Shown: positions 19,635 to 36,600 of the stretch, in pieces
How positions within the stretch are numbered: the first letter of the stretch is position 1
Layout: each line of letters starts with the position of its first letter
Source: a virus
Direction: 5' to 3' (one strand)
IMG/VR virus record: IMGVR_UViG_3300034120_001490
Span: 1-57,049 of that record
DNA length: 57,049 nt
Notes under the pieces: model-generated
What the model saw: the letters and a program-made list of their open reading frames with translations, nothing else
Databases searched by the model: none
Told to the model about the DNA's origin: nothing
Position numbers and translations under genes: made by a program

Positions 19635-20989
19635 TTCTTCCTCCGCTTCATTGCTTCCAGCAGGATCTCCTGCGTGCTCTTCTTCGACGTGAGACGATCC
19701 ATGACGAGGTCATCCACCGTGTCGCGGGCGAGGATCGGGTAGACGAACACCGGCCGATCGTAGCCGGCCTGCGCCTGCCGCATCGGCCCGATGCGCTCGA
19801 TGATCTGCATGTGCTCCTCGAGGTTCCAGTTGACCCCGTAGAAGGCGAGGATGTTGCCCCCGTCCGCGAGGTTCAGGCCGTGGCCCGCCGATGCAGGGTG
19901 AGCGAAAAGTAGTTCGATTTCCCCCCGGTTCCACTGTTTGATCGTATCAGGGTCAGCGTCCAGCACCCGGCCTTTAGGGTAGCGCTTGCGTAGCCGGGCC
20001 AAGTCGTGTTTGAAATTGTAGGCCACCAAGACGGGCGCGCCATTGGCCTCCTCAATGACGCTGTCCAGCGCCTCCAGCTTGGCATCGTGCACCGCCTCCC
20101 AGTTGCCGTACTCATCGGTGTACAGCGCCCCGTTGGCGAGCTGCAAGCACTTCTGCGTCCGCACCGCCGCGTTGGCTGCCTCGACGCCCTCGCTGTTGAG
20201 GATCGTGTACATCTCCTCCTCCATCTCGTCATACGCGCGGCGCGCCGCCGGCGGCAGGTCGATGTAGATCGGGCTGGTGATGGGCTCATCGACGGGCAGG
20301 CCGCGCACGGTCAGGCAGATGTCCTTGAGCCGCTCCTGCACCTCCTCCTGCGTGTGGTCGTAGGGCACGAGGCTGTAGCCGTCGTAGCCCTTGCGGAACC
20401 AGCGCTCGCTGAAGGCGCTGAACGTGCGGCCTAGCCGCTCTCCCTGATCAAGGAACCAGCTCTGCCCCCAAAGGTCTTTAACGCCATTGGGCGCAGGGGT
20501 GCCTGTCAGGCCGATGAAGCGCGTGACGTGCGTGTGGGCCACCTGACCCAGCGCACGCGCCCGTGAGCCGCCCTGACGCAGCCTGAAGCTCTTCAGCCGG
20601 GTGAACTCGTCGGCGACCACGGTGATGAACGGCCACGCGTCGCCGAGCGCCTCGCGCAGCCAGACGAGGTTGTCGTAGTTGGTCGTGTAGATGTCGGCCG
20701 GCGTGTCAAGCGCCGCCTGACGCTGCTTCGGCGTGCCGGTGATGACGCTGACGCGCAGGTGCGACAGGTGCGGCCACTTCTTGACCTCGTCCGGCCACGT
20801 GGAGCGCGCCACGCGCAGCGGTGCCAGCACCAGCACTGGGTACACGTCCTCGACCACGGAGAGCGCCTCCAGCGCCGTCAGGGTGGTGACGGTCTTGCCG
20901 CCGCCCATGGGCATCCACAGGGCGGCCCTGCGCTCCTTGTACAGGTGCGCGAGGGCCTCCCTCTGGTAGTCGTGCGGCTTGAAGGTCAC
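19631..20989 (-). CDS. SNF2/SF2-family DNA helicase or translocase
   Basis: The gene encodes 452 residues. GTG 20989 is chosen because it overlaps the upstream TGA (GTGA). A longer frame would run through the upstream gene. Motifs: Walker A PMGGGKT (27-33), DEF replacing DEAH (127-129), SF2 motif III LTGTPAPNG (161-169), motif V HPASAGHGLNL (~354-364) and a motif VI-like IIERIGPMRQ (~386-395). This is the phage SNF2-like group usually encoded near PolA, DUF2800 and DUF2815 genes. It should use ATP to move along or remodel duplex DNA during replication or recombination. Confidence 0.88.
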   Translation of the reverse strand: MTFKPHDYQREALAHLYKERRAALWMPMGGGKTVTTLTALEALSVVEDVYPVLVLAPLRVARSTWPDEVKKWPHLSHLRVSVITGTPKQRQAALDTPADIYTTNYDNLVWLREALGDAWPFITVVADEFTRLKSFRLRQGGSRARALGQVAHTHVTRFIGLTGTPAPNGVKDLWGQSWFLDQGERLGRTFSAFSERWFRKGYDGYSLVPYDHTQEEVQERLKDICLTVRGLPVDEPITSPIYIDLPPAARRAYDEMEEEMYTILNSEGVEAANAAVRTQKCLQLANGALYTDEYGNWEAVHDAKLEALDSVIEEANGAPVLVAYNFKHDLARLRKRYPKGRVLDADPDTIKQWNRGEIELLFAHPASAGHGLNLADGGNILAFYGVNWNLEEHMQIIERIGPMRQAQAGYDRPVFVYPILARDTVDDLVMDRLTSKKSTQEILLEAMKRRKK

Positions 20990-21195
20990 AGTGCTTCCCA
21001 AGGCTGCGGCCGGTGGAGCGGGCCACCTTCGCCTGCGAGCCACTCGGCGGTGTGTTCAGACGGAGCGCCCTTCCAGTACAGGCGGCCGCCGACATACCAG
21101 CGAAGCTGACGGCCACCGCGCGAGGTCTGGACGACGCGGGCGACGCGCTTGCCGGCGGGGGTCAGGTCGTAGTTGGTGTTGATGACGATCTGCAT
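20986..21195 (-). CDS. Small basic early protein
   Basis: The gene encodes 69 residues (MQIVINTNYDLTPAGKR at the start, WYVGGRLYWKG in the middle). ATG 21195 is chosen because a GGAGAC ribosome-binding site and the shared ATCAGCAAC leader lie immediately upstream. A frame running further upstream would cross the operator. It is the first gene of the operator-F transcription unit and is coupled to the helicase by GTGA. Basic and Arg-rich, it may bind nucleic acid. No family recognised. Confidence 0.7.
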   Translation of the reverse strand: MQIVINTNYDLTPAGKRVARVVQTSRGGRQLRWYVGGRLYWKGAPSEHTAEWLAGEGGPLHRPQPWEAL

Positions 21196-21250
21196 GTCAG
21201 GGTCTCCGTTGCTGATGTACTCTATTCGCACGTGCAACGTATGATTGCAA
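21196..21250 (-). promoter_or_regulatory. Operator/leader element F
   Basis: The palindrome at 21233-21249 (arms TGCAA/TTGCA, 17 bp overall) lies upstream of ATCAGCAAC and GGAGACC, ahead of ATG 21195. The left TTGCAA could serve as a -35 box; 17 bp later comes GAATAG, a weak -10. The leader ATCAGCAAC begins 34 bases after the start of TTGCAA, the same spacing as elements A and B. It heads the helicase operon. Confidence 0.7.
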
Positions 21251-22004: not shown

Positions 22005-22198
22005 TCCGGCTGCCTTCCGGCCGACCAGTTCGGCGTCACGCGCGCGTCGCTGTTAGGGACGCACCAAATCTCGCCGGATGTGTTCAAAGTCACAACCCAC
22101 AGCAGGTTGTGCTCCTGCCCGTAGTCGATCACGGCCAGCGCCAGACCGCGACCCTTGGGCGTGTCCATTGGGATCGAGGGGTTGAGCTGCGTAAACAT
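22001..22198 (-). CDS. Small protein coupled to the DNA polymerase gene
   Basis: The gene encodes 65 residues (FTQLNPSIPMDTPKGRG, AVIDYGQEHNLLWVVTL, GEIWCVPN). ATG 22198 overlaps the polymerase TGA and its own stop overlaps the VRR-NUC GTG, so all three genes are translationally coupled. From memory, a similar small beta-rich protein recurs next to polymerase genes of many phages. Function is unknown. A replication accessory role is suggested by position only. Confidence 0.7.
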   Translation of the reverse strand: MFTQLNPSIPMDTPKGRGLALAVIDYGQEHNLLWVVTLNTSGEIWCVPNSDARVTPNWSAGRQPE

Positions 22199-24162
22199 CA
22201 GTCCTTGCGGTAACGATACGCCTCGAAGCCGGCGGCGGCAAGCGGCAGGCCGGCCGACCAGCTCGGGTTGGTGGACATGATCGCCGCCAGCCCCTCGCTG
22301 GTGTAGGCCGGCTCGTCCGGCGTCTCGCAGACCAGCTCGTCGTGCACGCGGATGCAGACGCTGTAGCCGGCCTCCTCGGCGCGCAGCATGCCGGACATGA
22401 ACACGTCGCGGGCGATGGCCTGCACGGCGTTCTCGACCAGCTTGCCGCCGTACGTGTCGAGGCGCTCCCACTTGCGGGTGAATTGGTTCATGCCCTCGTA
22501 GGACAGGCTGCCGCTGGCCGACGCCTCCGGGCGCGGGTAGCACAGGTAGCGGCCGCTCGGCAGCTTCATCCGCAGCCACGCGATGCCCTGCCCGTCCGGC
22601 TTCACGTCGAACGTGATCAGGTCGCGCACGGCGAAGCTCTCGCCCATCTTGTTGATGGCTGACCGCGCGGCCGCCTCCATGTCGTACCACAGGTTGCGCG
22701 TGCACGGGTGGGCCTTGCGCCACGCCGAGACGATCTCTTGGATGGCCTCGTCCGTCATCGCGTCGAACACCTTGCCGCCCATCTTGCGGTACGCGCCGAC
22801 GCCGCCCTGATAGCCTCCCGCCAGCTCGGGCACCTTGCCCTGCAGTTGGCGCTCGGCCTTGGTGATGAGGCCCGGATCTTTGCCGAGGATGCGGCCGGCG
22901 GTCACCTTATACAGGTCGTGCCCGTCGCCCCGGTCGTAGGCCTTGAACGCCGTGACCTTCCAGTCCTCGCCGGCCAGCCACGCCAGCACGCGGCCCTCGA
23001 TGTTGGACAGGTCGGCGATGACCAGCTTGGTGCCCTCGGGGGCGACCAGCGCCCCGCGCACGGCGAAGGCGCAGCGCTCGCTGACGTTGTCCCAGATCAG
23101 GTGCTCGCAGTCCGCCTTCATGGCGGCCACGGTCGTCGCCTGCACGTCGTCATCGAACCAGTCGGGGCTGCGCGGCAGGTTCTGCGGCTGGAACAGGCGG
23201 CCGGCGTCACGCCCGGTGCGCGCCGCGCCGCAGAACTGGATCAGGCCGCGCAGGCGGCCGTCCTTGTTCGTGGCGTTGAGCAGCACACTGTACTTAGCCG
23301 GGCTCGTCGCGGCCGCCTGCTGGCGGATCTCCAGCAGCTCGCGCACCTGCGGGTCGAGGTCTCCGTCGAGCAGGTTGCCGAGCGTGGCGCGCGTCAGATC
23401 CTCGGTCTCGAAGCCGTGGGCGTCCTTGAGGTGGTCGAGCAGGCGCTGGCGCTGCGTGGCGGACGTGACGCTGCCGCCGGTCAGATCGGCTGCACGAGTG
23501 GCCAGAGATCGTCCAGCTCGATCGAAAGCTCGTAGAGCTGCTCGTGCAAACTCTCGGTCAACGGCGACACCACGGTCATTAATTCTTTGATCACACTGCC
23601 ACAGGAGCCGCTCACGATCACAATCGTTCCATGATGGCAGTCGTCCAAGTACGCTTCGCATTGCGTCCACATCCAGCCGGGCGTACTCGACGAAGGCGAC
23701 CCACTCGGCGGGATGTGTGTCACGGGTGGCTCTCCGTATCTTGACGTTGCTGGGCCTCGGCTTCGTCAGCAAGTGTATCAGCTTTTTGCCTGCCTTGTCT
23801 TTGGCTTTGTCCTGCGGCACGTGCAGCACGTCGCAGAGCTGGCCCAGAGAGCCGGGCAGGCTGTGCTGCAGGGCCAGCACCATCGTGTCGATGACCTTCT
23901 CCACGGGGATGTGGACGCCCTGCTCGCGCAGGACGGTGCGGTCGAAGTTGCTGTTGTGGATCACGACGCGATCAGACTTGTCGATGATGTTCTGCAGCGC
24001 GTGACGCCAATGCACGAGATCCTGCGTGTCCCAGACCGCAACAGGATCGCTGTCCATCGCCCACGCCACCAGCATCACCTCGGCGTCCTCCGCGTAGCGG
24101 TACGCGCCGTAGGTGATCTTGGTTTCGCAGAATGTTTCGAGATCGAGGTACAGTGTGCTCAT
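22198..24162 (-). CDS. DNA polymerase, family A, with 3'-5' exonuclease domain
   Basis: The gene encodes 654 residues. The N-terminal exonuclease has DLET (Asp7, Glu9), the HNSNFDR block (69-75) and YARLDVDAM with Asp164. The polymerase half has motif A DLSNIEGRVLAW (384-395), a motif B-like region KVPELAGGYQGGVGAY (443-458) and motif C VHDEL (606-610). Both activities should be intact. It is the replicative polymerase of the phage and lies with VRR-NUC, DUF2312, DUF2815 and DUF2800 genes, a familiar replication set. Its AGAGGA ribosome-binding site is 5 nt before ATG 24162 and is buried in a long upstream hairpin, so translation may be controlled. Confidence 0.95.
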   Translation of the reverse strand: MSTLYLDLETFCETKITYGAYRYAEDAEVMLVAWAMDSDPVAVWDTQDLVHWRHALQNIIDKSDRVVIHNSNFDRTVLREQGVHIPVEKVIDTMVLALQHSLPGSLGQLCDVLHVPQDKAKDKAGKKLIHLLTKPRPSNVKIRRATRDTHPAEWVAFVEYARLDVDAMRSVLGRLPSWNDCDRERLLWQCDQRINDRGVAVDREFARAALRAFDRAGRSLATRAADLTGGSVTSATQRQRLLDHLKDAHGFETEDLTRATLGNLLDGDLDPQVRELLEIRQQAAATSPAKYSVLLNATNKDGRLRGLIQFCGAARTGRDAGRLFQPQNLPRSPDWFDDDVQATTVAAMKADCEHLIWDNVSERCAFAVRGALVAPEGTKLVIADLSNIEGRVLAWLAGEDWKVTAFKAYDRGDGHDLYKVTAGRILGKDPGLITKAERQLQGKVPELAGGYQGGVGAYRKMGGKVFDAMTDEAIQEIVSAWRKAHPCTRNLWYDMEAAARSAINKMGESFAVRDLITFDVKPDGQGIAWLRMKLPSGRYLCYPRPEASASGSLSYEGMNQFTRKWERLDTYGGKLVENAVQAIARDVFMSGMLRAEEAGYSVCIRVHDELVCETPDEPAYTSEGLAAIMSTNPSWSAGLPLAAAGFEAYRYRKD

Positions 24163-24167
24163 GATGT

Positions 24168-24249
24168 CCTCTGTTCGGGAGAGCCGCGCGCTTCGTGTAT
24201 CAGCAACGCAGGAGACCCCGCACCCACGCGCGGCTCACCAGAACAGAGG
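24168..24249 (-). promoter_or_regulatory. Long hairpin sequestering the polymerase ribosome-binding site
   Basis: In the minus-strand transcript CCTCTGTTC (24249-24241) pairs perfectly with GAACAGAGG (24176-24168), and inside it GAGCCGCGCG (24236-24227) pairs perfectly with CGCGCGGCTC (24190-24181), separated by a 4x4 internal loop. The AGAGGA ribosome-binding site of the polymerase gene (24173-24168) lies in the outer arm, so the folded RNA would hide it. The 36-nt apical loop is large enough to bind a protein. The antisense of the loop carries an ATCAGCAACGCAGGAGACC phrase like the early leaders. Confidence 0.72.
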
Positions 24250-24290
24250 CGCGCCTGCCCCGCCAAGGGGGAGAAACAGGGCAGGCGCGC
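24249..24290 (-). promoter_or_regulatory. Second GC-rich hairpin in the polymerase leader
   Basis: Perfect 12-bp arms GCGCGCCTGCCC (24249-24260) and GGGCAGGCGCGC (24279-24290) enclose an 18-nt loop. It directly adjoins the ribosome-binding-site hairpin and follows the DUF2312 gene by 13 bases. There is no T tract on the minus side, so it is not a standard terminator. It may stabilise the mRNA end, pause polymerase or insulate the next hairpin. Confidence 0.65.
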
Positions 24291-24303
24291 TGGTTCTATA
24301 GAC

Positions 24304-24558
24304 CTACAGGAGATCCATGCCAATAGCCTTTGCGTAGGTCTCGAGCAGGGCGAAGTGCTCGTTCCTATCGTCATTGGCCATCTTGCGGAGACGGACGACC
24401 TCGCGGAGGATCTTGGCATCATACCCACGGGCCTTGGCCTCGGTGTAGATGTCCTTGATGTCGTCCGCGATGCCCTTCTTCTCCGCCTCAAGCGTCTCAA
24501 TGCGCTCGATCAGGAGGCGCAGTTGTTCGCCTGCGCTGTTGTGTCCCTCCTCGCTCAC
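24304..24558 (-). CDS. DUF2312 / GapR-like DNA-binding protein
   Basis: The gene encodes 84 residues from GTG 24558, overlapping the upstream stop (GTGA). The order EQLRLLIERIETLEAEKKGI, DDIKDIYTEAKARGYD, LREVVRLRKM and LLETYAKAIGM matches the DUF2312 family nearly end to end. The family includes the alphaproteobacterial nucleoid protein GapR, which clamps overtwisted DNA ahead of forks. The family is largely alphaproteobacterial, which supports such a host. Placed directly before the polymerase gene, it could manage DNA topology at phage forks or displace the host GapR. That is inference. Confidence 0.85.
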   Translation of the reverse strand: MSEEGHNSAGEQLRLLIERIETLEAEKKGIADDIKDIYTEAKARGYDAKILREVVRLRKMANDDRNEHFALLETYAKAIGMDLL

Positions 24559-25139
24559 AGGAAGTCGGCCGCGTCGGGAGCGACCTTGGTCAGCGACGCG
24601 AACTCGTCCGCAGACGCCGGAGCCGAGCCACCGCCGAGGTTCTCGCCCTCGCCGGTCAGCATGACGCCGCGCAGCGAGCAGTTGATGCGGCGGCCCCACT
24701 TGTTGTCCTGCGCCCACACCTCGACCGAGGCGTTGACGACGGCACCGCTGTGGGCCTGCCGCTCAATCGGGCCCTTACCCATCACCTCTTTGCCGTACTG
24801 ATCAAACACGGTCGGCTGGGTCTTGGCGTTGCGGGTGGACAGGTAGTGCTGCCCGTCAAAGCCCTGATAGGCCTCGCCGGTCTTCTTCGAGCGGTAGACC
24901 TTCTTGACGAAGGCGACCTTGCCGTCCTCTTCCAGCATCTTCAGGACGCTCTCGGCCTTGTCCTTCCACGCCTCGTCGGCCTCGGCGGCGATGGCAGCCT
25001 CAAGCGCCTTGTGCTGTTCGCTGCCCGGCTTGATGGCGAACTTTGCGCCGTAGGCCGGGTCGCCTTCGCCAAACGCCTGCGGTTCGGCAATCGCCGGGAA
25101 CGACAGAGTGACGCCCTTGAGCATGATACGTGTAGCCAT
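24555..25139 (-). CDS. DUF2815 protein, probable single-strand DNA-binding protein
   Basis: The gene encodes 194 residues. MATRIMLKGVTLSFPAIAEP at the start, YGAKFAIKPGSEQHKALEAA and the WGRRINCSLRGVMLTGEGEN block are typical of DUF2815, a phage family with an OB-like fold found next to DUF2800 and PolA genes and often considered a single-strand-binding protein. ATG 25139 is preferred to a GTG three codons earlier. The C-terminus ends in acidic/hydrophobic DAADFL, reminiscent of the acidic tips by which SSB proteins recruit partners. Confidence 0.85.
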   Translation of the reverse strand: MATRIMLKGVTLSFPAIAEPQAFGEGDPAYGAKFAIKPGSEQHKALEAAIAAEADEAWKDKAESVLKMLEEDGKVAFVKKVYRSKKTGEAYQGFDGQHYLSTRNAKTQPTVFDQYGKEVMGKGPIERQAHSGAVVNASVEVWAQDNKWGRRINCSLRGVMLTGEGENLGGGSAPASADEFASLTKVAPDAADFL

Positions 25140-27168: not shown

Positions 27169-27483
27169 TCAGGCCTTGCGCGCCACGACCTTGACGGTCG
27201 TGTAGCCCTTGCTGACCTTCTGGTTCTTGCTGAACCAACGGCCGTCCACGCCCAACTCACGCAGCTTGACTTCGGCGGCCTTGGCGTCGAGCGACTGGCG
27301 CTCGGCCACTTCCGACACCGTGGCGCGGAACAGGCTGCCGTCAATGGCGGTGTCGCCGGTGTTGACGATGAGCGCGATCAGGTTGGCCTCGACCGCCTTC
27401 AGTTCGGCGATCTGGGCCTTGATGCTGCCGAGGCGGTCGACGACCGAAGCGGCGAGGTCGATGGTGTTGGGCTGGGTAGCCAT
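27169..27483 (-). CDS. First gene of the operator-C operon; helical/basic early protein
   Basis: The gene encodes 104 residues. The N-terminal helix (TIDLAASVVDRLGSIKAQIA) could dimerise. A second half contains GSLFRATVSEVAERQSLDAK and a basic C-terminus (WFSKNQKVSKGYTTVKVVAR). ATG 27483 is chosen because AAGGAGAGACCCAC and the shared leader precede it. The longer frame would start inside the leader. Being first after the operator, it should be made early and abundantly. Family uncertain. Confidence 0.7.
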   Translation of the reverse strand: MATQPNTIDLAASVVDRLGSIKAQIAELKAVEANLIALIVNTGDTAIDGSLFRATVSEVAERQSLDAKAAEVKLRELGVDGRWFSKNQKVSKGYTTVKVVARKA

Positions 27484-27527
27484 GTGGGTCTCTCCTTGGG
27501 GTTGCTGATACATACCCATATGAACTT

Positions 27528-27549: not shown

Positions 27550-29592
27550 TTATTCGTAAAAAATTACAATCCCGTTTTCCATCCGCAGTGGGCCGTCCTT
27601 CTCCTTGCTAAGTGCCTGAATTGCCCGGACAACAGATTGGCGACGGATGTCACGCTTGCCCGGTTCGGGCGGTGGTAAAGTATCGCAAGCCTTGCGGATC
27701 AGATCCTCCGCGCGAATAACTGCATCCGCCGGGAACAGGGTCATCACCTCCAGCAGGTGGGTCTCAAGGCGGCCGCGACGCTTCACGCCCTTCTTGTCTT
27801 CGGGGGCCGCCGCCGGTCGGATATCGACCTCGACCGCGACGCAGCTCGTGATGTCGTCACCATCGTCGTCGAGGCCCAGCAGGACGGTCTCCAGCTTGAA
27901 GCCCCAGCGCAAGCCGTCCTCGCCGTCCTTCATCTTCTCGATCACAATCTCCCGGTCGCCGTTATCGTGGCGCAGCACCTCGATCTGCACGTCGGCGGCC
28001 GCCTTGAGACCCGACCAGCCGCGCGAGCCTTTGCTGAGATCCTTGCCGGCGTGGTGGACGACGAGGTTCATGGCACCGGTGGCGTCGTGCAGCAGGTTGA
28101 TGTTGCCCAGCGCCCGGCCCATGTCTTCGCTGGTGTTTTCGTTCGCGCCCGGCGTCACCTGCGCCAGCGTGTCGGTGATGATCAGATCGACCGGGCCGAG
28201 GTTCTTGATCTCGGCAATCACTTCGGAGATGTCGTCCCCGTCCAGAAAGTTCGGCGCGGCCGTGATGACGTGCAAGCCGTGCAGGCCGTGCAGGTCGAAG
28301 TTGTGGTGCTGGGCGTAGGCCTGAGCGCGCTTGCCCAGACCGGAGCCGCCTTCGGCGGCGATGATCACCACCCGCGCCTTGACCGTGCGCCGGGTGCGCC
28401 ACGCGTTGCCGCGCGCGATCGCGAAGGCGAGGTCGAGGGCGACGAATGTCTTGCCGCTGCCCGACGCACCGAACAGGATGCCCAGCTCGGCCTTGGGCAG
28501 CACGCCCTTGATCAGCCAGCCCATGGGCTCGCGCTGGGTCAGGTCGTAGATCGGCACCGGGCCGAAGCGGCCGAGGCTCTTCGTCGGCAGATCAGCCATG
28601 ATCGCCTCGGCCTTGGCCAGCACCTCCTCGCGGCTGGGTGGCTCGGCTGCGCGGTTGGCCTCCTTGGCCATCTTCATCACCGAGGCCATTGTGACTTGCC
28701 GCCGGTTCGATCCCTTGCGCCGCTCAAAGCTGTCCCACTGGCCGCGCATGGCCTCGGTGCTGACATAGGTGTAGCCGTCCTGCGACCATTCGTCCCACAG
28801 CTCGAAGCCGGTGTCGTCGCCGTCGCACTCGTGGTGCAGGGCCATCCCGACCTTGATCCAGTCGTCCCTCCCCATGTTCGGGTCGAGGCTGTTGACCAGC
28901 TCGGCCATGCGCTCGGGCGTCAGGCCCAGTCGCGGTTCGCGGCCGGCCATGAAGTCGTCGGGGTCAACGACGTTGTTGATGAGGGAGCCGCCGAAGCGGC
29001 GTTCGCACAGGTCGATGACGTGCTGGTCAACCCCAGCCACCGTGTTCCCAAGGCCGATCAGCTCACAGCCGGCCACGATGTTGCCGGTGAAGGTCACAAA
29101 GCCACTGGAGCTGAAGGTCTCAAAGCCGTAGCGGTCGGGCGCTACTTTGCTCTTGTGATTGCCCAGATTGCCCTTCAGGGCGGCGCGAATGCCCTTACCG
29201 CTCGGGCTGAACTCGGCATATGTCCGGGCAATGATGCGCTCGATCTCAGTCGGTATTTCACCGTCCGCCCCGACGCAGTTGTCGAAGTCAAGGAAGGTAT
29301 AGCCAAAATCGGGCAGCGGCGCGAAGCCGACGCCCTCGTAGTTCATGCGCGCGGCCGCGTCGCGCGCTGCGGCAAACGTCGTCAGTCGCTCGCGGTCGAT
29401 CGGCGAGCCCTGTTGGCCGTGCCGGATCGTGCCGTTTGTCCAGTATGGCACTTTGCGGGGCTTGATCTCGTCGGGGTACTGCTCGAAGCGCCAGATAAGC
29501 CAGCCGGGGATCAGCCGCAGCTCCGCCGGCACCTCAACGGCGCGGATTTTGGGCGCAATTGCCCTGACGCTGGCCATGTCGTCCTCGCTCAC
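27550..29592 (-). CDS. Primase-helicase: prim-pol-like domain plus RecA-type ATPase
   Basis: The gene encodes 680 residues from GTG 29592, overlapping the upstream stop. The N-terminal domain has LDFDNC (101-106; Asp102/Asp104), FSPSGKGIRAAL (128-139) and FVTFTG (165-170), matching archaeo-eukaryotic primase/polymerase cores. A PriCT-like helical unit follows (about 230-290; MGRDDWIKVGMALHH). The C-terminal AAA/RepA-like ATPase has Walker A GASGSGKT (375-382) and Walker B LIITDTL (470-476, Asp474). The last ~100 residues resemble a winged-helix tail. It should prime and unwind DNA at the phage fork. Confidence 0.85.
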   Translation of the reverse strand: MSEDDMASVRAIAPKIRAVEVPAELRLIPGWLIWRFEQYPDEIKPRKVPYWTNGTIRHGQQGSPIDRERLTTFAAARDAAARMNYEGVGFAPLPDFGYTFLDFDNCVGADGEIPTEIERIIARTYAEFSPSGKGIRAALKGNLGNHKSKVAPDRYGFETFSSSGFVTFTGNIVAGCELIGLGNTVAGVDQHVIDLCERRFGGSLINNVVDPDDFMAGREPRLGLTPERMAELVNSLDPNMGRDDWIKVGMALHHECDGDDTGFELWDEWSQDGYTYVSTEAMRGQWDSFERRKGSNRRQVTMASVMKMAKEANRAAEPPSREEVLAKAEAIMADLPTKSLGRFGPVPIYDLTQREPMGWLIKGVLPKAELGILFGASGSGKTFVALDLAFAIARGNAWRTRRTVKARVVIIAAEGGSGLGKRAQAYAQHHNFDLHGLHGLHVITAAPNFLDGDDISEVIAEIKNLGPVDLIITDTLAQVTPGANENTSEDMGRALGNINLLHDATGAMNLVVHHAGKDLSKGSRGWSGLKAAADVQIEVLRHDNGDREIVIEKMKDGEDGLRWGFKLETVLLGLDDDGDDITSCVAVEVDIRPAAAPEDKKGVKRRGRLETHLLEVMTLFPADAVIRAEDLIRKACDTLPPPEPGKRDIRRQSVVRAIQALSKEKDGPLRMENGIVIFYE

Positions 29593-31199
29593 AGCAGTGA
29601 AATTAAATCGTCGACGATCTGGATGCGCTCGCCTATCCAGCGCATCACCGGCACCGCCATGCTGTTGCCCAGCGCCTTGTAGCGCGGGCCGTCAGGACAA
29701 TGCTCTGGCCCTTTCTTCTTCCACGGGATGCCGGTGAAGTTGTCGGGGAAGCCCTGAAGCCGTTCGCACTCCACCGGGGTCAGGCGGCGGACGGCGGATG
29801 CAATCGCTACAGATGCGTGATGCCGACGCGTTAAAGTTGGATTGACGCCGCTTGTGTCTGGAGTTGCAAAAGACATATTAGCTTCAAACGCCACCGCAGG
29901 TGGATGCGCGCCCGCCGCCAGTGGGTGGCACGGATCGCCGGATTGCGGGTTGCTGTAGTTGTGCGGGCTGCTGATCTGGGTGGTGTCAAACGGCGTGACA
30001 ACGAAGTCGCCGCCCTGATTGCCACTCACTGGGCCTCCCGCCATGATCGGCTGCGCCACCTCAGTCTCGCGGGCCTTGTAGTCCTTGCCGCTGTTCATCG
30101 GCATGATGGAGTAGGCCACGGCTGGCATATTGCCGCCGCCGTCTCCACCCTTGCGGATAGTCGGGCAGATGTTGTCGCCTGCGTCAGCTCCGTGGTCGCC
30201 TTTGCTGAAGGCAATGTAACTCGTCTGCTTCATTTCCGGCTGCGCGGCCAGCGCGCCAACGATCTGCCCATCGCCGCCGACCAGACGCACTTCATCGCGT
30301 GTGTTCTGGGCAAAGGCCACGTACGCCTTTGTGTCCGGCGCGTGATGCGATTCGCTCTGCGTGTTCAAAGCAGGGCTGACCACCGGCACAATGTGGTCGA
30401 AGTCGCCTTGCACACCGCCCTCGCCGGGGCGCTTGGTGCGGAGTGTGCCAACGCTGTCAGGCACGAATAGCGGGCAGCCTGCGTTGACGTGCTGGTTGTT
30501 CTGTCCCCACTTGCTGGCGAAGTCAGTGTCAAGGGTGCAGGCTAAGTTTGCGGGCCAGTCTACAGTAGGTCGCTCCCCTCCGGCATCGCCACGCTCTCCA
30601 GCGCCCGCTGCAGCGCCGCTGGCAGCGTCTTGCCGCGCTTCTCGGCTCGGCGCAGGATGCCCTGACATGCTGTGGCGCTCAAAAAGAACCGCTGCGGCAG
30701 GTCGCCAGTCTCCAAGGTATCCGACAACGAACACACGACGGCGGCGCTGGGCCACTCCGAAGTACTGAGCGTCAAGCACTCGGTACGCGAGGCCATACCC
30801 GAGCTCTTCCAGCGCCCCGAGGATGGAACCAAAGTCCCGTCCTCCTCCCGATGACAGGACGCCGGGGACATTTTCCCAGACAATCCAACGAGGCTGCTCA
30901 CGCTGAGCAAGTCTACAAAACTCGAGGGCGAGGTTACCACGCTGATCGTCCAATCCACCTCGGAGACCGGCGACACTGAAGGATTGGCAGGGTGTGCCGC
31001 CAACAAGGAGGTCGATTTTGCCATACTGGTTCTTCTCAATTGTCGTGAAGTCGCCGTGCAGCGGGACTTCAGGATAGTGATGGGACAGCACTGCACGGGG
31101 GAACGCCTCAATCTCCGAAAAGAAGGCGGGTTCCCAAGCCATGTGGTGCCACGCGGCTGTCGCGGCCTCAATGCCGCTGCAAACGGATCCGTAACGCAT
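29589..31199 (-). CDS. C5-cytosine DNA methyltransferase with long target-recognition region
   Basis: The gene encodes 536 residues. Motif I SVCSGIEAA (5-13), motif IV GGTPCQSFSVAG with catalytic Cys71, motif VI ENVPG (109-113), motif VIII QRRRRVFVV (151-159) and motif X GNSMAVPV (511-518) are all present, so it should be active. The region between motifs VIII and X is about 350 residues, long for the family, and contains phrases such as VGTLRTKRPG, CPTIRKGGDG and NPTLTRRHHASVA. No partner endonuclease was recognised, so it is a solitary enzyme, likely protecting phage DNA from host restriction. Target sequence unknown. Confidence 0.93.
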   Translation of the reverse strand: MRYGSVCSGIEAATAAWHHMAWEPAFFSEIEAFPRAVLSHHYPEVPLHGDFTTIEKNQYGKIDLLVGGTPCQSFSVAGLRGGLDDQRGNLALEFCRLAQREQPRWIVWENVPGVLSSGGGRDFGSILGALEELGYGLAYRVLDAQYFGVAQRRRRVFVVGYLGDWRPAAAVLFERHSMSGHPAPSREARQDAASGAAAGAGERGDAGGERPTVDWPANLACTLDTDFASKWGQNNQHVNAGCPLFVPDSVGTLRTKRPGEGGVQGDFDHIVPVVSPALNTQSESHHAPDTKAYVAFAQNTRDEVRLVGGDGQIVGALAAQPEMKQTSYIAFSKGDHGADAGDNICPTIRKGGDGGGNMPAVAYSIMPMNSGKDYKARETEVAQPIMAGGPVSGNQGGDFVVTPFDTTQISSPHNYSNPQSGDPCHPLAAGAHPPAVAFEANMSFATPDTSGVNPTLTRRHHASVAIASAVRRLTPVECERLQGFPDNFTGIPWKKKGPEHCPDGPRYKALGNSMAVPVMRWIGERIQIVDDLISLL

Positions 31200-31453: not shown

Positions 31454-31623
31454 GCGTCTTCCAGTTTGTTGATCTCGTGACGGAAGCGCTCATCCCGGAT
31501 GCCCCAGATGTGCGTCTCCTGCATGTATTGCGACTTGAGCTTGACCAGCCGGTCGTTGACGGCGTCCAGCTCGGCCTGCAGCCGATCGCGCTGGGCGAAG
31601 GCCTCGCGTGCCTCGGCGATCAT
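31450..31623 (-). CDS. Small coiled-coil protein
   Basis: The gene encodes 57 residues, charged and helical, with a coiled-coil-like first half (AQRDRLQAELDAVNDRLVKL) and an aromatic patch (QYMQETHIWGIRDERF). ATG 31623 overlaps the upstream stop (ATGA) and has a GGGAGTGCGG site. Its own stop overlaps the HTH gene start. No family recognised. Its tight coupling to the HTH gene might indicate a regulatory partner. Confidence 0.65.
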   Translation of the reverse strand: MIAEAREAFAQRDRLQAELDAVNDRLVKLKSQYMQETHIWGIRDERFRHEINKLEDA

Positions 31624-31877
31624 TTCCGCACTCCCTTCGGGCCGAGGCGGCCGGTCTTCGGGTCGCGGAAGTGCGCCTGCTTGAGGGTGTCCTCCAGACG
31701 CTCGATCTTGGAGCGCAGGACGCGGATGACGAGGCCGTCCGTTGCGGAGTTGGACGCCTTGCGCTCGGTCTCGCCGAGCTTGACGTACAGGGCCTCGATC
31801 TCGCGCTTCTGACTGGCTACGAGCCAGCGGGCCTCGCGCAGCGCGCCCCAAGGGTTGAGGATATCGCAGATGCTCAT
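31620..31877 (-). CDS. First gene of the operator-E operon; helical early protein
   Basis: The gene encodes 85 residues (SICDILNPWGALREARWLV at the start, then a charged helix and a basic C-terminus RDPKTGRLGPKGVRK). ATG 31877 is chosen because GGAGAGACCGAC and the ATCAGCAAAC leader precede it. A longer frame runs through the operator and is rejected. From memory, a similar protein occurs in early regions of other phages, without known function. Confidence 0.68.
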   Translation of the reverse strand: MSICDILNPWGALREARWLVASQKREIEALYVKLGETERKASNSATDGLVIRVLRSKIERLEDTLKQAHFRDPKTGRLGPKGVRK

Positions 31878-31919
31878 GTCGGTCTCTCCGTTTGCTGATG
31901 GGCCTGTTGTTGTGGCAGA

Positions 31920-35419: not shown

Positions 35420-35650
35420 TCAGTAGCCCTCCGCCTGCAGCTCACGCTTCACAGCGTTGAGGGCGTAGACCTCGGACAGGCTGCGGAGCAGCAGGGTCTT
35501 GTCGCCGGAGTGATCGAAGAAGGCGCGGGCGGTCATGACGCGGTCAACGGCCGCGAGCAGGTGGCGCTGCAGGATACGCACCTGCCGGCCCTTGAGGCGC
35601 TTGAAGCTGCGGTGGGCCTTGTCGGCGTCGATGTTGCGGTAGGCGGTCAC
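35420..35650 (-). CDS. Basic helical early protein
   Basis: The gene encodes 76 residues with a very basic N-terminal half (DADKAHRSFKRLKGRQVRIL) and a helical C-terminal half. GTG 35650 is chosen because AAGGAGACACCCA and the ATCAGCAACC leader phrase precede it. The frame continues upstream only into the leader. It could bind nucleic acid. The leader phrase occurs here without the palindrome, which belongs to the gene upstream. Confidence 0.65.
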   Translation of the reverse strand: MTAYRNIDADKAHRSFKRLKGRQVRILQRHLLAAVDRVMTARAFFDHSGDKTLLLRSLSEVYALNAVKRELQAEGY

Positions 35651-35672
35651 TGGGTGTCTCCTTGGTTGCTGA

Positions 35673-35900
35673 TTAGGCTTCGATGTGGTTGCCGTTGATG
35701 TAAGCACCGTCGGTGTAGATGGCGGCGACGGGCGTGCCGTTACGCGAGCGCAGCAGCCACGCGCTCTCGTCTTCGTCCCAGTGCACGTCGACCGCGCCAG
35801 CGGCGACAGCCACCGCGACGAAGTCCGCGTCGAAGATGCACTCGCGGCCGCAGGTGACTTCGGCGATGTGGCTTTCGATGTCGGCGATCAGTTTGGTCAT
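35673..35900 (-). CDS. First gene of the operator-B operon; small acidic protein
   Basis: The gene encodes 75 residues, acidic (TKLIADIESHIAEVTCGREC, DVHWDEDESAWLLRSRNG, TDGAYINGNHIEA). CGGAGACACCCA precedes ATG 35900, matching the leader of the divergent gene at 36304 almost base for base. As first gene after the operator it should be expressed very early. No known family. Confidence 0.68.
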   Translation of the reverse strand: MTKLIADIESHIAEVTCGRECIFDADFVAVAVAAGAVDVHWDEDESAWLLRSRNGTPVAAIYTDGAYINGNHIEA

Positions 35901-35944
35901 TGGGTGTCTCCGGTTGGTCGTTGCTGATGACCTCTTCTCTCATA

Positions 35945-36266: not shown

Positions 36267-36303
36267 TGTGAGAGAAGCAATTATCAGCAAACGGAGACAC
36301 CCA

Positions 36304-36600
36304 ATGACCGACCTCGACGCCCTCCTCGCCGAATTCGCCGCCGCCACCAAGATCGTGACGCTCGCGGATCTCACTCCTGCTCAACGCGAAGCTGCCGAGC
36401 GCATCATCGCCAAGACCGCCGGCAATCGCAAAGAGATCAAGACGCTCAAGATCAGCCGCTACAACGGCAACAGCTATGTCACGCTGTACGTCGAAGCTGG
36501 CCTGCCAAACGACGAAAAAACGCTGGCGTCCATCTTCTGCCGCGACACCGCCCACGTTCAGGTCGGCCCTCGCGGCGGCATCACCAACATCGGCCGCTGA
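36304..36600 (+). CDS. Rightward early protein next to the putative origin
   Basis: The gene encodes 98 residues. The N-terminal half is helical (LDALLAEFAAATKIVTLADL, REAAERIIAKTAG). The C-terminal half is beta-rich and basic (IKTLKISRYNGNSYVTLYVE, VQVGPRGGITNIG). The GGAGACACCCA site fixes ATG 36304. A longer frame would include the operator. It has its own operator and terminator, so it is a single-gene unit. Its place beside the iterons makes an origin-binding or regulatory role possible, but no family was recognised. Confidence 0.7.
   Translation: MTDLDALLAEFAAATKIVTLADLTPAQREAAERIIAKTAGNRKEIKTLKISRYNGNSYVTLYVEAGLPNDEKTLASIFCRDTAHVQVGPRGGITNIGR

Follow-up and report, generated by a model that had tools for sequence, protein, structure and literature searches.

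A ribosome-binding-site hairpin in a viral DNA polymerase leader carries a loop antisense to the start signals of other genes

Several small antisense RNAs act on phage messages, among them the CI RNA of P4, sar of P22, and OOP of lambda. The c4 RNA is encoded in the leader of the operon under its control. In P1 and P7, translation of a phage mRNA is blocked when loops of c4, itself a phage RNA, pair with the ribosome-binding site (RBS) region of that mRNA (PMC12197685). Start regions of phage mRNAs are also covered by proteins. The gene 43 operator of T4 and RB69 is a 16–18-nt hairpin with a UAAC-type loop that is bound by protein and lies in the polymerase leader near the RBS, and the T4 RegA protein occludes the start regions of ~30 early mRNAs (PMC3014915).

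The leader described here lies ahead of the DNA polymerase gene in a virus record of 57,049 bases, which was analyzed whole and is denoted the window; positions count from its first letter. The closest known system is c4 of P1/P7, which shares with the window leader an antisense loop directed at an RBS region, seen here as complementarity. c4 acts on one message (ant) in immunity, whereas the window loop matches at least six start signals distributed over both strands, and its leader belongs to replication genes. No Rfam family matches the window leader, and at the gathering threshold no sequence or structure match to a described RNA family of the c4 kind was found. The P4 CI RNA, P22 sar, and lambda OOP differ in having a single target or very few, in not being polymerase leaders, and in lacking an address shared by mRNA 5′ ends. 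The gene 43 operator resembles the window leader as a hairpin near or over the RBS in a polymerase leader. However, the window leader carries a 36-nt antisense loop and not the 16–18-nt hairpin with a UAAC-type loop, and the T4/RB69 operator has no antisense relation to other genes. The polymerases also differ, with the window enzyme belonging to family A and that of T4 to family B. The likeness to the RegA regulon is in the many early start regions involved, although RegA is a protein and the partner in the window is an RNA loop. By analogy, the leader would work as c4 does with a reach like that of RegA, and is assigned to neither system.

Among named phages, the nearest polymerase is that of Caulobacter phage RW, with 58% identity to the window polymerase. 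The RW leader likewise has two adjoining hairpins with an RBS (CGGAG) in the second stem, but its predicted fold has a loop of only 3 nt and no antisense loop, and no AUCAGCAAC-type start signals are found in the 14.9-kb stretch of RW examined. The alignment of the RW polymerase (L108:6001-8883) is split in two, with ~290 additional residues close to its C-terminal part that are possibly an intein or another insert. A similar alignment gap is seen in the polymerases of APSE phages, in some records with an annotated HNH endonuclease.

The genes and RNA elements of the locus, all on the minus strand, are as follows.

22198 to 24162, minus strand: family A DNA polymerase gene, 654 aa, with Pfam DNA_pol_A and 3′-5′ exonuclease matches, downstream of the leader
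24163 to 24303, minus strand: polymerase leader RNA, 141 nt, intercistronic between the GapR-like gene and the polymerase gene
24304 to 24717, minus strand: gene for a GapR-like DNA-binding protein (PF10073, E 2.7e-30), directly upstream of the leader
24249 to 24290, minus strand: hairpin 1, a perfect 12-bp stem (24290-24279 with 24260-24249) abutting hairpin 2
24168 to 24249, minus strand: hairpin 2, with outer stem 24241-24249/24168-24176 and inner stem 24227-24236/24181-24190
24249-24241 with 24176-24168, minus (mRNA) strand: outer stem of hairpin 2, CCUCUGUUC/GAACAGAGG, 9 bp
24236-24227 with 24190-24181, minus (mRNA) strand: inner stem of hairpin 2, GAGCCGCGCG/CGCGCGGCUC, 10 bp
24191 to 24226, minus strand: loop of hairpin 2, 36 nt, antisense to a start signal shared by early genes
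24167 to 24172, minus strand: polymerase RBS, AGAGGA, with AGAGG paired within the outer stem

The perfect 12-bp hairpin heads the list of short-range inverted repeats in the 57-kb window. A sequence-only reading had described 9-bp and 10-bp stems around a 36-nt loop with a perfect 12-bp hairpin adjoining, and both lie on the minus strand as described, at 24168-24249 and at 24290-24279 with 24260-24249; a 4x4 internal loop separates the two stems of hairpin 2. The same reading had placed AGAGGA inside the outer stem, 5 nt from the polymerase ATG. AGAGG is indeed in the stem while the last A falls just outside, and the distance is 4 nt (CAUC) before the AUG. RNA folding predicts that the RBS is paired. 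A 181-nt stretch containing the leader folds with −86.1 kcal/mol, compared with −66.6 ± 4.8 kcal/mol for shuffled sequences (z −4.0, reached by 0/200 shuffles). The leader hairpins are confirmed, and their structure is far beyond chance because compensatory changes keep it in relatives. Rfam at gathering and relaxed thresholds returned nothing credible; the weak matches at the relaxed threshold belong to other families and cover hairpin 1. Hairpin 1 was also considered as an intrinsic terminator and rejected, as a terminator scan found none there and it has no T run. Neither a promoter nor a terminator that would indicate how a free small RNA is produced was found beside the leader. Elsewhere in the replication region, a C-5 cytosine methylase gene (29589-31199) sits beside the primase/helicase gene, and its best Pfam stretch covers the N-terminal part only.

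Relatives were collected by three kinds of search, with the polymerase protein, with DNA patterns, and with a polymerase profile that included no leader sequence. All relatives that bear the leader are IMG/VR contigs of environmental viruses. Against named phages, the leader region had no match by megablast or blastn, and a pattern scan of genome contigs gave 8 matches (Streptomyces, myxobacterial, and other genomes) that were judged to be chance from their hosts.

Stem covariation was assessed in 30 distinct leaders with 500 shuffles as control. The outer stem is paired in 98.5% of cells and has compensatory changes at three pairs (C-G/U-A, U-A/C-G, and G-C/A-U/U-A). Both sides are changed in 26 cells, a value as high as which occurred in 0/500 shuffles. 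The remaining departures that still pair are mostly G-U on the mRNA strand, a pattern that points to RNA of this strand and away from a DNA cruciform. Among the 30 leaders no double change is seen in the inner stem, which in more distant phages is recoded (GAGGGCCGC, GGGCCGTGC, GAGGGCTGT, GGACCGCGC, and others) with pairing kept. The sequence-only reading had made its hairpin depend on compensatory changes in relatives; these were found, as is characteristic of a cis-regulatory RNA that sequesters an RBS, and the hairpin stands. Hairpin 1 behaves differently. In the folds of relatives its sequences are unrelated between phages, yet a long stem nearly always abuts hairpin 2, at a constant position (24249-24290 in the window) despite full sequence turnover. 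At a junction with upstream sequence in L033:6473-6627 and L059, the 5′ arm of hairpin 1 has been lost and hairpin 2 remains intact; these leaders offer a natural test of the need for hairpin 1.

The 36-nt loop is the reverse complement of a start signal, AUCAGCAAC-n-GGAGACCC, composed of a motif and a Shine-Dalgarno (SD) sequence, a relation that the sequence-only reading missed. Within the window the signal stands ahead of six further genes, of which five share the strand of the polymerase and the sixth is on the opposite strand. The two antisense elements of the loop and the six targets are listed below.

24199 to 24207, minus strand: antisense core GUUGCUGAU, reverse complement of AUCAGCAAC, covarying in trans
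24211 to 24218, minus strand: anti-SD GGGUCUCC, reverse complement of GGAGACCC
21193 to 21216, minus strand: target start signal AUCAGCAAC-GGAGACCC..AUG of a 69-aa gene (20986-21195)
27481 to 27509, minus strand: target start signal of a 104-aa gene (27169-27483), upstream of the DUF2800, SSB, GapR, and polymerase genes on the same strand
31875 to 31899, minus strand: target start signal (AUCAGCAAA) of an 85-aa gene (31620-31877)
35648 to 35673, minus strand: target start signal of a 76-aa gene (35420-35650), overlapping the stop codon of the previous gene, with no promoter
35898 to 35928, minus strand: target start signal of a 75-aa gene (35673-35900)
36283 to 36306, plus strand: target start signal (AUCAGCAAA) of a 98-aa gene on the other strand (36304-36600)

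The start signal occurs at 65 distinct sites in a first set of relatives and at 124 in a larger set, the latter including a few chance matches in coding sequence. Pfam and PHROGs searches of the target genes gave no clear function. Duplexes between the window loop and its six targets have a mean energy of −31.9 kcal/mol, compared with −15.2 ± 2.2 kcal/mol for shuffled loops, and the pairing net of opening costs is −13.6 to −24.2 kcal/mol. The anti-SD lies on the 5′ side of the core in every representative loop (53/53, with 18 expected). The antisense motif was also considered as the start signal of a gene on the opposite strand, which is ruled out by the lack of a start codon at a usable distance in the window and in the relatives read.

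The loop and its targets change together in trans. The window-type pair is loop GUUGCUGAU with target AUCAGCAAC. In L112/L169 (one contig), loop GUUGCUGAC accompanies three promoter-linked targets GUCAGCAAC; in L123, loop GUUGUUGAU accompanies three targets AUCAACAAC; and in the L176-L195 clade and L173, loop GUUGUUGGU accompanies targets ACCAACAAC/A. L161 pairs loop GUUGCUGAG with its one target CUCAGCAAC. L185 has a matched insertion of one base, with loop UUGCUUGAU, whose antisense reads AUCAAGCAA, and one target that reads AUCAAGCAA. Imperfectly pairing target variants, CTCAGCAAC or ATCAACAAC, stand beside loop GUUGCUGAU in some genomes. On the polymerase tree, at least six changes of the loop core are counted, with the placement of L173 unsure; these independent changes are few, and two of them (L161 and L185) rest on a single target each.

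Across 41 representative genomes with 75 promoter-linked targets, address positions 2 and 5 match the genome's own loop in 75/75 targets and address position 1 in 67/75. When loops were permuted among genomes 5,000 times, a procedure that ignores phylogeny, the observed 217/225 matches were never reached and the maximum was 204. The result holds when a single member of the ACC clade is kept. L123 is not in the permutation table, most likely since an overlapping register was matched first, and was read directly. Whole-loop duplex energies differ only slightly between own and other genomes (−32.6 and −30.4) because most genomes share one core, and the informative comparison is the one made position by position on divergent cores. 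A loop and several unlinked targets that change together, the pattern of a multi-target trans-acting antisense RNA, are thus found in these phages.

On this sequence evidence, the leader is probably, with somewhat better than even confidence, an antisense RNA borne on the polymerase mRNA. Its partners would be the SDs and 5′ ends of early mRNAs, and the hairpin that hides the RBS would serve as its scaffold. The outer stem would hold the RBS of the downstream gene, the polymerase in the window, so that translation is poor unless the hairpin opens. The hairpin would present the 36-nt loop, anti-SD first and then GUUGCUGAU, for pairing in trans with the 5′-terminal address AUCAGCAAC and the SD of other early mRNAs. 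Such pairing would cover the target SDs, a rising polymerase message would lower early-gene translation, and leader and targets would titrate each other. Pairing in the cell, repression by that pairing, and an mRNA-borne form as opposed to a processed small RNA are what we infer from the sequences. The direction and timing of control are likewise presumed, and the term "early" itself is deduced from gene content and position.

The motif could instead be a DNA operator, with a phage regulator binding ATCAGCAAC downstream of early promoters and the inverted leader copy serving as an extra site. The motif lies 34–38 nt after a −35-like TTGCA/TTGAC in 112/124 targets, near the probable transcription start, and a DNA-binding factor could therefore in principle recognize it. 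This near-fixed distance in most targets favors the operator, and genome-wide co-change is likewise expected of a DNA-binding protein, since all sites would change together when its specificity changes. Three observations make the operator unlikely. The leader copy is always antisense, within a covarying RNA hairpin loop, with the SD complement alongside (53/53). The spacing between motif and SD is not constant, with 0–9 nt across targets. At least six targets have no promoter and come straight after a stop codon or an RNA hairpin, among them 35673 in the window and a site of the co-changed form in L123; at these promoterless sites between genes the motif therefore works at the RNA level. The early promoters upstream of 21216, 27509, 31899, 35928 (−), and 36283 (+) are alike, also in relatives. 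They carry TTGCAA, often with a second TTGCAYGTG ~13 nt on, and the AUCAGC motif 34–38 nt past the first. A regulator may bind at the double TTGCA.

The loop might also function only in cis, as a switch in which it pairs with GUAUCAGC by the downstream start codon as an alternative to the outer stem, with its likeness to other genes' signals secondary. Many relatives have GUAUCAGC or GUUAUCAGC between RBS and AUG, matching their own loop and varying with it, and 34/53 representatives (about two thirds) have a perfect loop complement of at least 7 nt within 28 nt downstream. Loop and cis element vary as matched pairs (GCUGAUAACC with GUUAUCAGC, GCUGAUACAC with GUGUAUCAGC, and GCUGAUCCU with AGGAUCAGC). 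However, the window and its close relatives have lost the element (ACAUCAUG, AUGCCAUG), which is also absent from many distant relatives, while the loop core and the trans targets persist. The trans relation is therefore the constant one, and a cis-only switch is quite unlikely. A pseudoknot of loop and GUAUCAGC simultaneous with the outer stem is rejected on geometric grounds, with ~20 bp to cross and 0–2 nt available, and the pairing would therefore be possible only as an alternative state. Under the antisense reading, the loop in about two thirds of relatives could also pair with an address copy beside its own downstream start codon.

The sequence-only reading suggested autogenous control of the T4/RB69 kind, by the polymerase or another early protein. 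The protein (the polymerase, SSB, or GapR) would bind the leader hairpin as T4 gp43 does and repress its own synthesis. The leader precedes the polymerase gene with an RBS in its stem, and T4/RB69 offers a precedent (PMC3014915). Yet such repression predicts neither an antisense loop nor co-change with the start signals of other genes, and the T4-type loop is absent. In many relatives, moreover, a different gene is inserted between the leader and the polymerase gene. The inserted genes encode a 97-aa protein that weakly matches a transcriptional repressor or a 214-aa resolvase/endonuclease-like (nuclease-like) protein. Different genes occupy the slot, and the leader therefore controls the slot and not strictly the polymerase. 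Occupied slots are seen at L006:3708-3998, L011:339-980, and L079 after 392, and the window slot is empty. Of the earlier interpretation, the conserved RBS-occluding hairpin is borne out by covariation and predicted RBS pairing, whereas autoregulation by the polymerase is not supported and can be regarded as very unlikely. Least probable of all, and hardly to be expected, is that the very stable stems merely slow polymerase translation, protect the RNA, or sense temperature (the last an alternative raised in the sequence-only reading) around a partnerless loop, as this accounts neither for the conservation of the loop core amid free change in hairpin 1 and the outer stem nor for the covariation of loop and targets.

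The wider form of the antisense reading is that the polymerase-mRNA leader is a multi-target antisense RNA coordinating the whole early regulon, with loop and addresses rewritten together into a private code for each lineage; our confidence in this is evenly balanced. No earlier description of such a system was found in an incomplete literature search, which speaks only weakly for novelty. With the matched sequence changes at hand, the pairing can be tested by simple swaps, and similar systems may be found by seeking a leader loop whose reverse complement recurs as a start signal in the same genome. If the reading is true, the early-gene program of these phages would be run by RNA-RNA pairing, in which one loop addresses many start signals in place of a RegA-type protein. 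Expression of the polymerase would then be tied directly to the shut-down or balance of the other early genes.
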